A stretch of 64,000 bases of DNA from Halopelagius inordinatus (GTDB lineage Archaea; Halobacteriota; Halobacteria; Halobacteriales; Haloferacaceae). Under the pieces are notes generated by a model. The model ran no database searches, was not told the DNA's origin, and saw nothing but the letters and a program-made list of their open reading frames with translations. Position 1 is the first letter of the stretch; every line of letters starts with the position of its first letter. The position numbers were made by a program, and so were the translations under genes. The stretch spans positions 1-64,000 of the forward strand of contig NZ_FOOQ01000007.1 of assembly GCF_900113245.1 (NCBI RefSeq), in the 5' to 3' direction. Positions 15,140 through 18,165 of the stretch are shown here, in pieces.

Positions 15140-15432
15140 AACGACTATAACGAAATCAACGAACAAAACGAACAGAACGAGAAAAACGAATGAATTGAAC
15201 GCATTCTGAGGAACGAACTGGCACCCTCTACTCGATGAACAAAACGAAGAAAACGAACGTAACGAACAGAACGAATGAGTTGATGGCAACGAGTGCGTTT
15301 ACTTCAACGAGTGTAACGAACAGTTGGTTTTAACACCGTAGTAATCCTCTCACCGAGTGAAACACCCTCACCGAACGCACCGAACTAAACGACCAAAACG
15401 AACGAAACGAACACAACGAGAGAAACGAAGAT
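15140..15432 (+). repeat. 9-bp iteron arrays upstream of parA (putative centromere)
   Basis: Units of consensus AACGAANNN repeat head to tail with an exact 9-base period. There are six units at 15140-15193. From about 15234 to 15323 the same register is kept across ten positions, most of them matching. Seven units at 15370-15432 end one base before the parA ATG. There is no protein gene in 15028-15433. Regular iterons next to a parA gene are the usual form of a plasmid partition site; they may also act as the operator of the par operon. Confidence 0.75.
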
Positions 15433-15433
15433 A

Positions 15434-16252
15434 ATGACCGACACCAATACCGCACGAATCACGGTGGCGAATCAGAAGGGAGGCGCGGGGAAGACGACCG
15501 ACGTCATTCATACAGGCGGCGCACTCTCTGCCAGAGGCCACGACGTCCTCCTGGTCGATATCGACTACCACGGAGGACTCACCTGCTCGCTTGGCTACAA
15601 CGACCTGTACTATGATACCGACCGCACAACGCTGTTCGACGTCCTCGACTTCGATCAGATGGAGTCGGTGAACGACATCATCGTCGAGCACGAGGAATTC
15701 GACATCCTCCCCGCCAGTGAGAAGCTCGCGAACAACAAGAACATCCAGACGTTGCTTGAGGCGCCGAAGAGTCGCGAGCGTTTGGAGATGACACTCGACG
15801 AACTCGACAATGACTACGACTACATCATCGTCGACACGCCGCCATCCCTGAACGTTCTCACCGACAACGCCCTCGTCGCGACCGGCAACGTCGTCATCCC
15901 CGTCATCCCCGAGAAGCTCAACGCCAACAGCCTCCAAATTTTCGCAAAGCAGCTGAGTTCCCTCGAACAGGCGTACGGAGACATCAATCGGCTCGCCATC
16001 GTCTGTAACCGTGTCGAGCAGAACGCCGAGCACCGCGACACCATCGAGGAGATCAAGTCGGCGTACTCCCTCCCAGTGTTCGAGATCCCGAAGCGGACCG
16101 ACCTCTCCCAGTCGATTGGCGAGGGGGTGTCTGTCTTCGGCTTCGGCAAGGAGAACCAGCGCGTCGAGGATGCACGCGACCTGTTCAACGAGATCGCCGA
16201 CCTGTTCGACGAGACGTTTGAGAAGACCGCACCTGAGGAGGTGGAAGCATGA
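15434..16252 (+). CDS. parA: ParA-family partition ATPase
   Basis: A 272-residue Walker-type ATPase. The deviant Walker A is KGGAGKTT at residues 15-22. Walker A' is LLVDIDYHGGLT, where most relatives read DPQG. Walker B is YDYIIVDTPPS. ParA moves plasmid copies apart by ATP-driven binding to nucleoid DNA, guided by a centromere-binding partner. The iterons upstream and the overlapping partner gene complete the cassette. No N-terminal DNA-binding extension is present, so autoregulation would rest with the partner. Confidence 0.9.
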   Translation: MTDTNTARITVANQKGGAGKTTDVIHTGGALSARGHDVLLVDIDYHGGLTCSLGYNDLYYDTDRTTLFDVLDFDQMESVNDIIVEHEEFDILPASEKLANNKNIQTLLEAPKSRERLEMTLDELDNDYDYIIVDTPPSLNVLTDNALVATGNVVIPVIPEKLNANSLQIFAKQLSSLEQAYGDINRLAIVCNRVEQNAEHRDTIEEIKSAYSLPVFEIPKRTDLSQSIGEGVSVFGFGKENQRVEDARDLFNEIADLFDETFEKTAPEEVEA

Positions 16253-16656
16253 CCGACGGCTGGGGCGATGCATCCGGCATTGAGGGCAACTACGAAGAGG
16301 AGGACGACGAGGCTGATTCCAGCGAAACGAGCGAGGTGAGTGAAACGGTGGAAACCAGTTCATCGACCGAAACGACCGAATCGACTTCAACGAGTGAAAC
16401 GAACGAAACGAGCAAAACGAAGACAAACATCAAGGACGAGTGGAACGGGCGGACGATCTATATTCCCGACGATGTCCTCGACGAGATGGAGGATACCTAC
16501 CTCGAGTCCCAGCTGAAGCTCCGCAAGGCGGGGCAGGACGAGTTCAAGAAGAACCGCCACTTCTACCCGCTACTCGTCCAGTTCGGTGTTGAGGCGCTCT
16601 CTGATGCGGATGCTGAGGAAATTCAGGCTCGGCTTTCGGAACTCGGAGACGAATGA
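16249..16656 (+). CDS. ParA partner, putative centromere-binding protein with iteron-encoded linker
   Basis: A 135-residue protein whose ATG overlaps the parA stop (ATGA at 16249-16252). Residues 1-24 are acidic. Residues 25-60 are a Ser/Thr/Glu tripeptide-like repeat (SETSEVSETVET and onward). Residues 63-135 form a compact domain with the strand GRTIYIPDDVLDEME, which could be a ribbon-helix-helix start. Partners of this type bind the iterons and stimulate ParA. The repeat segment is encoded by the same 9-bp iteron found upstream of parA, so the gene carries its own putative binding sites. The DNA-binding role is inferred. Confidence 0.65.
   Translation: MTDGWGDASGIEGNYEEEDDEADSSETSEVSETVETSSSTETTESTSTSETNETSKTKTNIKDEWNGRTIYIPDDVLDEMEDTYLESQLKLRKAGQDEFKKNRHFYPLLVQFGVEALSDADAEEIQARLSELGDE
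16326..16424 (+). repeat. 9-bp iterons inside the ParA-partner gene
   Basis: Eleven consecutive 9-base units in strict register. Seven read AACGAnnnn or AACGGnnnn or ATCGAnnnn close to consensus (for example AACGACCGA, AACGAGTGA, AACGAACGA, AACGAGCAA, AACGAAGAC). They match the arrays at 15140-15432 and encode the three-residue Ser-Glu-Thr repeat of the partner protein. Confidence 0.7.
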
Positions 16657-16815: not shown

Positions 16816-16929
16816 TGAAGTACCTCGCCGCCGTCCGGTAAGCACGAATGCTGCAACCGCCTCACGACGGCGCTTCCCCCAGGGTAGAGGCACCGAGACC
16901 GGGCCCGCAGGACGGTGGAGGGCCGGTGG

Positions 16930-18165
16930 ATGCCTGATCGAGCGCTTTCGACGCCACTCGAAGACAGCTTCGAGCGCTACCTCCAGGACAAGGGGAAAGG
17001 CCGCGGTGGCGACGGCGGGAACTATCGACGAAACGCTGCACGCGAACTCGAGCGGTTCGCCGAGTGGACCGCCGGCGACCGTGGCAATGACGACTGGACT
17101 GGGATCGTCCCCGACGACGTCGACCGGGAGCCGAACTTCGACGATCTCGACGAACGCGTGTTCCGGGAGTACGCCCGGCATCTCGGTGGAGATCGGGGAC
17201 TCAAGCAGAACACGGTACAAACCTATTACCGCTATATCTCTGCGTGGTGCGGGTGGTGTGTCAACGAAGGGTATCTCGAGGCCCACTACGCGCAGAGGGC
17301 GAGTGCGATGGCGCCGCTGCCGGAGGACGACGGCCGCAAGCCCGGCGACCAACAGGCCTGGACGTCTGAACAGCGCCACGCCCTCACCCGCCACGTCGAC
17401 GAACGGGCCCGCGACGCCGTCGAGGCGTACACGACACTCTCACAGGATACTGACCCACTCGACAAGCAGCGAGCGCGCTACGCCGCGCTCAAAGCGGCTC
17501 GTGACCGGGCTCTGGTGTTCGTCCTCGCGTACACAGCTGTCCGCGTCGGGGAACTCCTCCGGGACCCGAACGACCCGCGCCGGCGCGGCGTCCGCTGGGA
17601 GGACCTCTCCCTCGACGATGGGAGTATGGACGTCTACCGGAAGAAACAGCAATGGGACGCCGCGAGTCTTCCCGACCCGGTGATCTCGCCGCTGCGAAGC
17701 TATCGCCAGCTGATGGACCCACCGACGGAGCGGTGGCCGGTGTTTCCAACGTTCGACCAACGGACGCTTGCAGGGCTCGTCCGGGAAGAGCTAGCCGAAC
17801 GAGGGGAACGCCCAGAAGCAATTACTGAGCGCCGTGAAGAATACGCTCGCGACCTCCTGCTGGCGCTCGATGGGGACATTCGGCCGCCGTCGATCACGAC
17901 CGATGGTGCACGGTCGATTCTCCAACGACTCTCCAAGGAGGGGGAGGTCGACATCGTCCACCCGAAACACGACTACCTCGCTCCTCACGGCGGTCGACGA
18001 GGCATGGGAGAGGTCCTCGTCAGAGCATTCGGCTACACGGTCGCAGCTCGATATCTCGACAACTCGGAGGAGATGGTTCGAGAGCGCTATTCCCACATCG
18101 AGGCAGGCGAACTTGGAGACGTGGCGACTGAAGCTCTCGACGAGGTTGACCATCTTGGGAAGTGA
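16930..18165 (+). CDS. Tyrosine recombinase (XerC/D-type integrase)
   Basis: About 411 residues from ATG 16930. Residues 1-130 form a SAM-like core-binding domain (NTVQTYYRYISAWCGWCVNE). The catalytic domain shows Arg in YTAVRVGELL, a basic strand DVYRKKQQW with the likely Lys, His-x-x-Arg in APHGGRRG, and the nucleophile Tyr in RERYSHIE. All key residues are present. Location next to parA and the dif-like palindrome points to multimer resolution or cassette recombination on the plasmid rather than a virus. A short insertion (PPTERWPVFPTFDQRT region) between the catalytic motifs is longer than in Xer proteins. Confidence 0.85.
   Translation: MPDRALSTPLEDSFERYLQDKGKGRGGDGGNYRRNAARELERFAEWTAGDRGNDDWTGIVPDDVDREPNFDDLDERVFREYARHLGGDRGLKQNTVQTYYRYISAWCGWCVNEGYLEAHYAQRASAMAPLPEDDGRKPGDQQAWTSEQRHALTRHVDERARDAVEAYTTLSQDTDPLDKQRARYAALKAARDRALVFVLAYTAVRVGELLRDPNDPRRRGVRWEDLSLDDGSMDVYRKKQQWDAASLPDPVISPLRSYRQLMDPPTERWPVFPTFDQRTLAGLVREELAERGERPEAITERREEYARDLLLALDGDIRPPSITTDGARSILQRLSKEGEVDIVHPKHDYLAPHGGRRGMGEVLVRAFGYTVAARYLDNSEEMVRERYSHIEAGELGDVATEALDEVDHLGK

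Follow-up and report, generated by a model that had tools for sequence, protein, structure and literature searches.

Repeats upstream of parA recur as linker codons of the partner gene in a putative haloarchaeal plasmid partition module

Introduction

Type Ib partition systems with ribbon-helix-helix (RHH) centromere-binding proteins (pSM19035 delta/omega; TP228 ParF/ParG) combine a small ParA that lacks an N-terminal DNA-binding extension with a small DNA-binding partner and short direct iterons in the promoter region; the iterons of pSM19035 are 7 bp long and its sites overlap promoters (PMC9499535). The RepA_N initiator of pSK41 has Rep boxes within the part of rep that codes for a dispensable interdomain linker (PMC5703833), and repABC plasmids of some Rhizobiales carry parS at the 5' end of repB (PMC9040568). 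In the SegAB system of Sulfolobales, a ParA-like ATPase is paired with a partner that is disordered at its N-terminus, ends in an RHH domain and has its binding sites upstream of the operon (PMC12284271).

The locus described here lies in a window of 64,000 nucleotides from Halopelagius inordinatus, which is part of contig C7 (NZ_FOOQ01000007.1) in a 3.5-Mb haloarchaeal assembly. We infer that it functions in the manner of a type Ib partition system that has an iteron centromere; the fold of the partner is unconfirmed, and iteron binding, stimulation of ParA and plasmid stabilization are themselves inferences. Like type Ib systems, it has a small ParA that carries no N-terminal DNA-binding extension, a small partner (whose DNA binding we infer) and short direct iterons in the promoter region. 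Unlike in pSM19035, the unit is 9 bp and a co-varying array is present additionally inside the partner coding sequence; a profile search revealed no sequence relationship between the partner and solved RHH partition proteins. The locus shares with pSK41 the position of a protein's binding sites (here inferred) in the linker-coding part of its own gene, so the principle that sites encode a linker is not wholly unprecedented (PMC5703833). However, pSK41 is a replication origin with four Rep boxes and a winged-HTH initiator, whereas the present gene encodes a ParA partner and contains a tandem of 9-bp units, and in many families the coding array co-varies with the upstream one. As in the repABC plasmids, a partition site (again inferred here) falls within a partition-protein gene (PMC9040568), but repABC parS sites are single 16-bp palindromes read by an HTH-type ParB/RepB and not tandem iterons forming a disordered tail. 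SegAB is likewise an archaeal ParA-like ATPase with a partner whose N-terminus is disordered (RHH is only probable in our case); it is, however, chromosomal, uses imperfect palindromes and has no reported intragenic site array.

A preliminary description of this DNA knew of no archaeal partition site that is also a protein-coding linker. We too found no description of the arrangement in archaea in the open-access literature (most subscription papers were outside the scope), but a linker-encoding site array is known from the bacterial pSK41 origin (PMC5703833). Within the literature that could be searched, neither the partition form of this arrangement in archaea nor the parallel changes of sites, codons and linker sequence over dozens of families appear to have been described.

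Results

The par locus and its iteron arrays

The features of the locus are collected in Table 1. ParA carries a deviant Walker A motif (KGGAGKTT) near its N-terminus, the AAA_31 match spans residues 9-179, and there is no N-terminal DNA-binding extension or domain. The partner gene follows directly 3' of parA with an ATGA overlap (4 nt); in most loci compared the overlap is -4 or -8 nt and the order is typically parA, then partner. The TATA-like element, which lies between arrays 2 and 3, is a candidate parA promoter by inference from the sequence only. The upstream arrays (15140-15432) overlap this candidate promoter region, as in type Ib systems, their function as sites being inferred.

Table 1. 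Features of the par locus (positions in the window).
Feature	Position	Strand	Description
Upstream iteron array 1	15140..15193	+	AACGAANNN, 9-bp period, 6 units
Upstream iteron array 2	15234..15323	+	5 contiguous units at 15234-15278, then isolated units up to 15323
TATA-like element	15324..15334	+	TTGGTTTTAAC; read from the sequence; kept in homologous upstream regions
Upstream iteron array 3	15370..15432	+	reaches the parA start codon
parA	15434..16252	+	272-aa Walker-type ParA ATPase; Pfam AAA_31, 1.8e-35
Partner gene	16249..16656	+	135 aa; putative centromere-binding protein (no binding data)
Intragenic iteron array	16324..16422	+	11 in-frame 9-bp units in the partner gene, consensus GAA ACG ANN
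C-terminal folded domain	16441..16653	+	predicted extended segment, then helices; AlphaFold2 pLDDT ~90-95 over the helical part
Putative DNA-contacting strand	16444..16467	+	NGRTIYIP (alignment A3); strand residues correlate with shared motif

The 9-bp repeats that had been reported upstream of parA and inside the partner gene are indeed present. AACGAANNNAACGAA (at most one mismatch) matches 18 times in the window versus 0.35 expected from shuffles, and 16 of these 18 matches fall at 15140-16421. A search of the whole 3.5-Mb assembly for the triple pattern (at most two mismatches) gave 13 matches, confined to C7:15140-15429 and C7:16389-16421; the reversed-pattern control gave none in the whole assembly. 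The upstream units had been thought to repeat in exact register. A 9-bp register holds inside each array, but the arrays are out of register with one another (starts 15140, 15243 and 15388). The coding array, previously placed at 16326-16424, exists at the corrected coordinates of Table 1. Its units are consecutive, keep a single codon phase (GAA ACG NNN) and encode the Glu-Thr-Ser/Asn linker of the partner; they are also degenerate, with AACG kept in 7 of 11. Chance or composition as the source of the arrays was ruled out by the shuffles, the whole-assembly search and the parA controls given below.

A tyrosine integrase gene (16915-18165) follows the par module, as one also does in Haloarcula marismortui pNG600 and one Halobacterium noricense plasmid; the par-integrase block thus travels together. 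The source assembly (G000) contains at least four ParA/partner modules, on contigs C3 (L090), C5 (L054), C7 (the window) and C10 (L062). They differ in upstream sequences and linkers, which is expected if every plasmid has its own specificity.

Synonymous codons of the array are constrained

Synonymous differences were determined by pairwise comparison of 25 window-type homologues at conserved residues only. The values are 0.055 for array codons 36-58 and 0.011 for codons 46-54, versus 0.187 for parA and 0.212 for the C-terminal domain; the synonymous codons of the array are ~ 4 times more constrained than those of either (nominal p = 1.6e-7). For Thr, Glu and Ser, which had enough sites for a comparison amino acid by amino acid, the contrast persists. 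Codon choice in the linker is shifted (GAA 61% versus 27%, AAA 57% versus 16%, ACG 61% versus 30%), and such shifts track the motif of each family: for Lys, AAA is raised in F1 (57% versus 16%) and AAG in F5 (85% versus 66%), while GCA reaches 88% versus 8% in F6, following the F6 motif. The base after AACG is A in 87% of the coding and 85% of the upstream units of window-type loci, but in only 50% and 41%, respectively, in the MGGIADRF family, which has the same AACG core. All window-type homologues that have upstream sequence carry 9-bp AACGAA repeats there.

According to the preliminary description, a DNA site array could double as the code for a linker, an idea that homologues keeping the linker with unrelated codons would refute. 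The homologues gave the opposite result, conserved array codons, and the idea is supported by this synonymous constraint together with linker repeats that track the upstream motif (see below); binding to the array remains an inference. It could be argued that the resemblance is a matter of protein or composition only, a low-complexity Ser/Thr/Glu linker acquiring a chance likeness to the upstream repeats through biased codons and slippage. Disordered acidic linkers are common in haloarchaea, and the N-terminal region of the partner is predicted to be disordered, with very low model confidence for residues 18-55. This account was already disfavoured and we regard it as highly improbable in view of the synonymous constraint, the codon preferences that run in opposite directions between families, the co-variation with non-coding upstream DNA despite different amino acids and frames, and the absence of the effect in the MPRGMDERF family.

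Upstream motif and linker codons change together

Across 119 ParA/partner loci the parA-proximal upstream motif and the linker-coding repeats change together, family by family. The test statistic was the share of linker 6-mers that also occur, in either orientation, within the 100 bp preceding parA. With families redefined (25 units), sharing is 11.75% within a locus versus 6.10% between loci (sd 0.67, 0/2000 permutations); a first run had given 12.3% versus 6.0% for permuted loci (0/20000). Similar values are obtained when the window family is excluded (11.2 versus 6.05) and for the minor families alone (10.3 versus 5.8). A validation set of 44 loci of other families (13 clusters), fetched once the test had been fixed, yielded 12.01% versus 5.96% (sd 0.98, 0/2000). 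In the control comparison of upstream DNA with parA segments the difference is 0.1-1.0 points, versus 5.8 for the linker, and the motif-by-family table is largely diagonal. The 100-bp stretch and the 6-mer size were picked after examples had been inspected, but the result is stable for 60 and 100 bp and for k = 5-7. The single-linkage clusters are not fully independent.

Synonymous shuffles that keep the protein, pooled over loci, lower the sharing from 11.82 to 8.99 in the main set (sd 0.31, 0/500) and from 11.75 to 8.85 in the validation set (sd 0.53, 0/300). What sharing is left reflects the choice of amino acids, and this choice in turn tracks the motif. The test is weak for some single families (F4 42/500, F6 35/500, F8 37/500). 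Codon bias of Ser/Thr/Glu linkers was ruled out as an explanation by these shuffles, by the codon conservation at matched residues and by the opposite codon shifts in other families. No 6-mer signal was detected for MPRGMDERF (20 loci), the singletons L087, L096 and L126, or the L090 group; because MPRGMDERF and several small families lack it, the arrangement is common but not universal.

Between distant families (30-45% identity) the upstream motif differs, the coding repeats differ likewise and the linker amino acids change. The MGGIADRF family has CGTTTCnnnCGTTTC upstream and GAA ACG NNN (Glu-Thr-x) as coding repeat; in the RADRLRRRR family, AGCAAAACT repeats upstream go with GCA AAA CCG codons, and in the RYD family CTTTG repeats go with TCA AAG ANN (Ser-Lys). 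Upstream GAACG in the RLSRRFGG families is matched in a different frame, by GAG AAC GCA or ATG AAC GCA (Asn). L192 and L198 have TCACAGAACGCACAGAACG upstream, and the linker of L192 is encoded by TCA CAG AAC GCA CAG. In L212, a 17-bp segment of the upstream DNA reappears, as its reverse complement (CAGATAATCTGGATAAT), in the codons for a DNTDNLDN linker. GAT-AAT-CCA (Asp-Asn) is a further coding repeat that matches its own upstream motif.

The coding motif is found almost only on the coding strand and array 3 may fall in the 5' leader, as would suit repeats that act in the mRNA. Such an RNA-level element seems to us very doubtful: two families, MGGIADRF and RYD, have their upstream copies in inverted orientation, and arrays 1 and 2 of the window precede the TATA-like element and so are probably not part of the parA transcript.

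The promoters of many distant parA homologues share a conserved octamer, GTCTGACG, ~ 30-60 bp before parA and a few bases before a TTTAT/TTAA box (L048, L052, L056, L059, L065, L066, L068, L075, L079, L081, L083, L089 and others). It is absent from the window family. As a driver of the 6-mer signal the octamer was rejected, since with it masked the sharing is still 10.9 versus 5.3.

Position of the contiguous sites in two families

In the window family long contiguous arrays (runs of 3-8 sites) are present both upstream and in the coding sequence. The MGGIADRF family has only two contiguous upstream sites, an inverted pair just before the parA start, but its partner linker holds runs of 4-16 sites and its first parA codons add another 3-4. 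These parA codons encode an extra ETxETxET N-terminal tail of ParA by the same 9-bp sites (L047, L048, L050, L057, L059, L063, L071). Of the triple GAAACG arrays (exact or with one mismatch) in seven MGGIADRF genomes, most fall in the partner linker and the first parA codons; the remaining ones are mainly window-type par arrays. The best-studied RHH system, pSM19035, needs at least four contiguous repeats to activate ParA (PMC9499535). As the MGGIADRF upstream region holds two, we infer by analogy that its coding arrays are the only centromere candidates found with sufficient length.

The same data bear on a purely regulatory role, in which the partner on the upstream and coding arrays would repress the operon or act as a road-block to its transcription, with the true centromere at another place or missing. 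The motif copies are nearest to the parA start and promoter, with the strongest upstream signal at -100 to -1, and the MGGIADRF inverted pair immediately precedes the parA start. We nevertheless consider regulation alone unlikely, because the arrays of the window family are longer and more contiguous than a simple operator needs, the RHH-type pSM19035 system requires at least four contiguous repeats for ParA activation (PMC9499535), and the source assembly has no further triple array.

The partner protein and its putative recognition strand

The folded C-terminal domain is probably, but no more than probably, an RHH domain, an assignment suggested by its sequence and by the order of its predicted elements. 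Foldseek searches of the PDB with two models gave no significant match (best E 3.2 and 4.9) and no structure search confirmed the fold, which is why we leave it as probable. Pfam RHH_5 reaches only E = 0.12, in two alignment members. The partner itself has no significant family match in Pfam or NCBIfam, hence none to a replication initiator domain, and its PHROGs matches are of unknown function. Among the matches listed for any alignment member there is no ParB/Srx CTPase or HTH family, and a profile search of solved structures, which covers solved relatives only, returned no SegB or RHH partition protein.

Loci with the same first two residues of the putative strand triad share more of the motif at equal overall identity (8.64 versus 5.80 at 35-45%, 8.37 versus 6.34 at 45-55%). 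Locus pairs are not independent, and the correlation is therefore supportive only. F1 and the MGGIADRF family have NGRTIY and the AACG core in common and differ elsewhere.

Origins within initiator genes exist in pSK41 and pT181 (PMC5703833), as does an oriV within repC of repABC plasmids (PMC9040568), and the repeats could in principle be origin iterons that a different protein reads and that merely happen to overlap the partner gene. Such a role in replication control appears improbable, given that the motif tracks the strand residues of the partner, that it adjoins parA in the families showing it, and that no initiator gene adjoins the window locus.

Distribution and relatives

Window-type partners (62-99% identity) were found in 45 plasmid records at a coverage of at least 80%, among 81 records with any match. 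With a profile of the C-terminal domain, relatives were detected in 138 of 295 genomes and 55 of the 88 genera of the order; the whole-genome search covered haloarchaea only. Two contigs (G169:C2, G262:C4) carry a second, equal-scoring partner gene, suggesting replicon fusion or a large duplication. Decayed-looking partner genes for which no full-length parA was found occur in L045, L046 and L064, and some still have part of the repeats in the linker. The L segment of phage phiH (L131:2923-3324) has a partner relative beside a parA-like gene. GAACG recurs every 18 bp in its linker codons, and three further copies follow one another every 9 bp in the codons of the C-terminal helix. The annotated start of transcript T7, 5 nt before parA, puts the octamer at the BRE position or just above.

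Discussion

The arrays, the co-variation, the synonymous constraint and the strand-residue correlation are direct observations. In our best reading of them, the partner binds a centromere, and some of its site array, in one family almost the whole of it, is located in the partner gene itself; that the partner binds these sites and that the module acts in partition are inferences. The plasmid location of the homologues and the ParA assignment count for a partition module, and it is very likely that the partner helps to share out plasmid copies at cell division, although this role is itself inferred. The explanation as a whole, a haloarchaeal plasmid partition module with sites both upstream and coding and the partner as their reader, we hold to be probable; it includes binding, a centromere and operator role, and a fold that have all been inferred. 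Somewhat less firmly, we favour the view that the gene is a self-contained unit of reader and sites, in which a change of the recognition residues is followed by rewritten codons and thereby a rewritten linker, and that the centromere of some families is essentially inside the par genes.

We propose that the C-terminal domain, probably RHH, reads a short motif repeated every 9 bp. The sites upstream of parA would serve as operator and centromere, and each 9-bp site of the coding array would at the same time supply three codons of the disordered N-terminal linker. Partner molecules bound along the arrays would form a partition complex that is pulled on by ParA, and would also repress the operon. 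If the specificity of the domain shifted, the upstream and coding arrays would shift with it, and the amino-acid sequence of the linker would for the most part be a side effect of the DNA site. Almost all contiguous sites of the MGGIADRF family would lie in coding sequence, in the partner linker and the first parA codons.

If this proposal is true, it would be a widespread and naturally repeated case of one stretch of DNA that is bound by a protein at an array of sites and also encodes the disordered tail of that protein, with site/tail pairs diverging in parallel in dozens of families. To our knowledge, plasmid segregation in haloarchaea has been little studied, and the loci would provide candidate centromeres and partition proteins for many haloarchaeal plasmids. 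They would also amount to a natural collection of reader/site pairs that could be used to predict plasmid compatibility. Finally, they would be a warning that the function of the DNA, and not that of the protein, can dictate how a disordered region reads.
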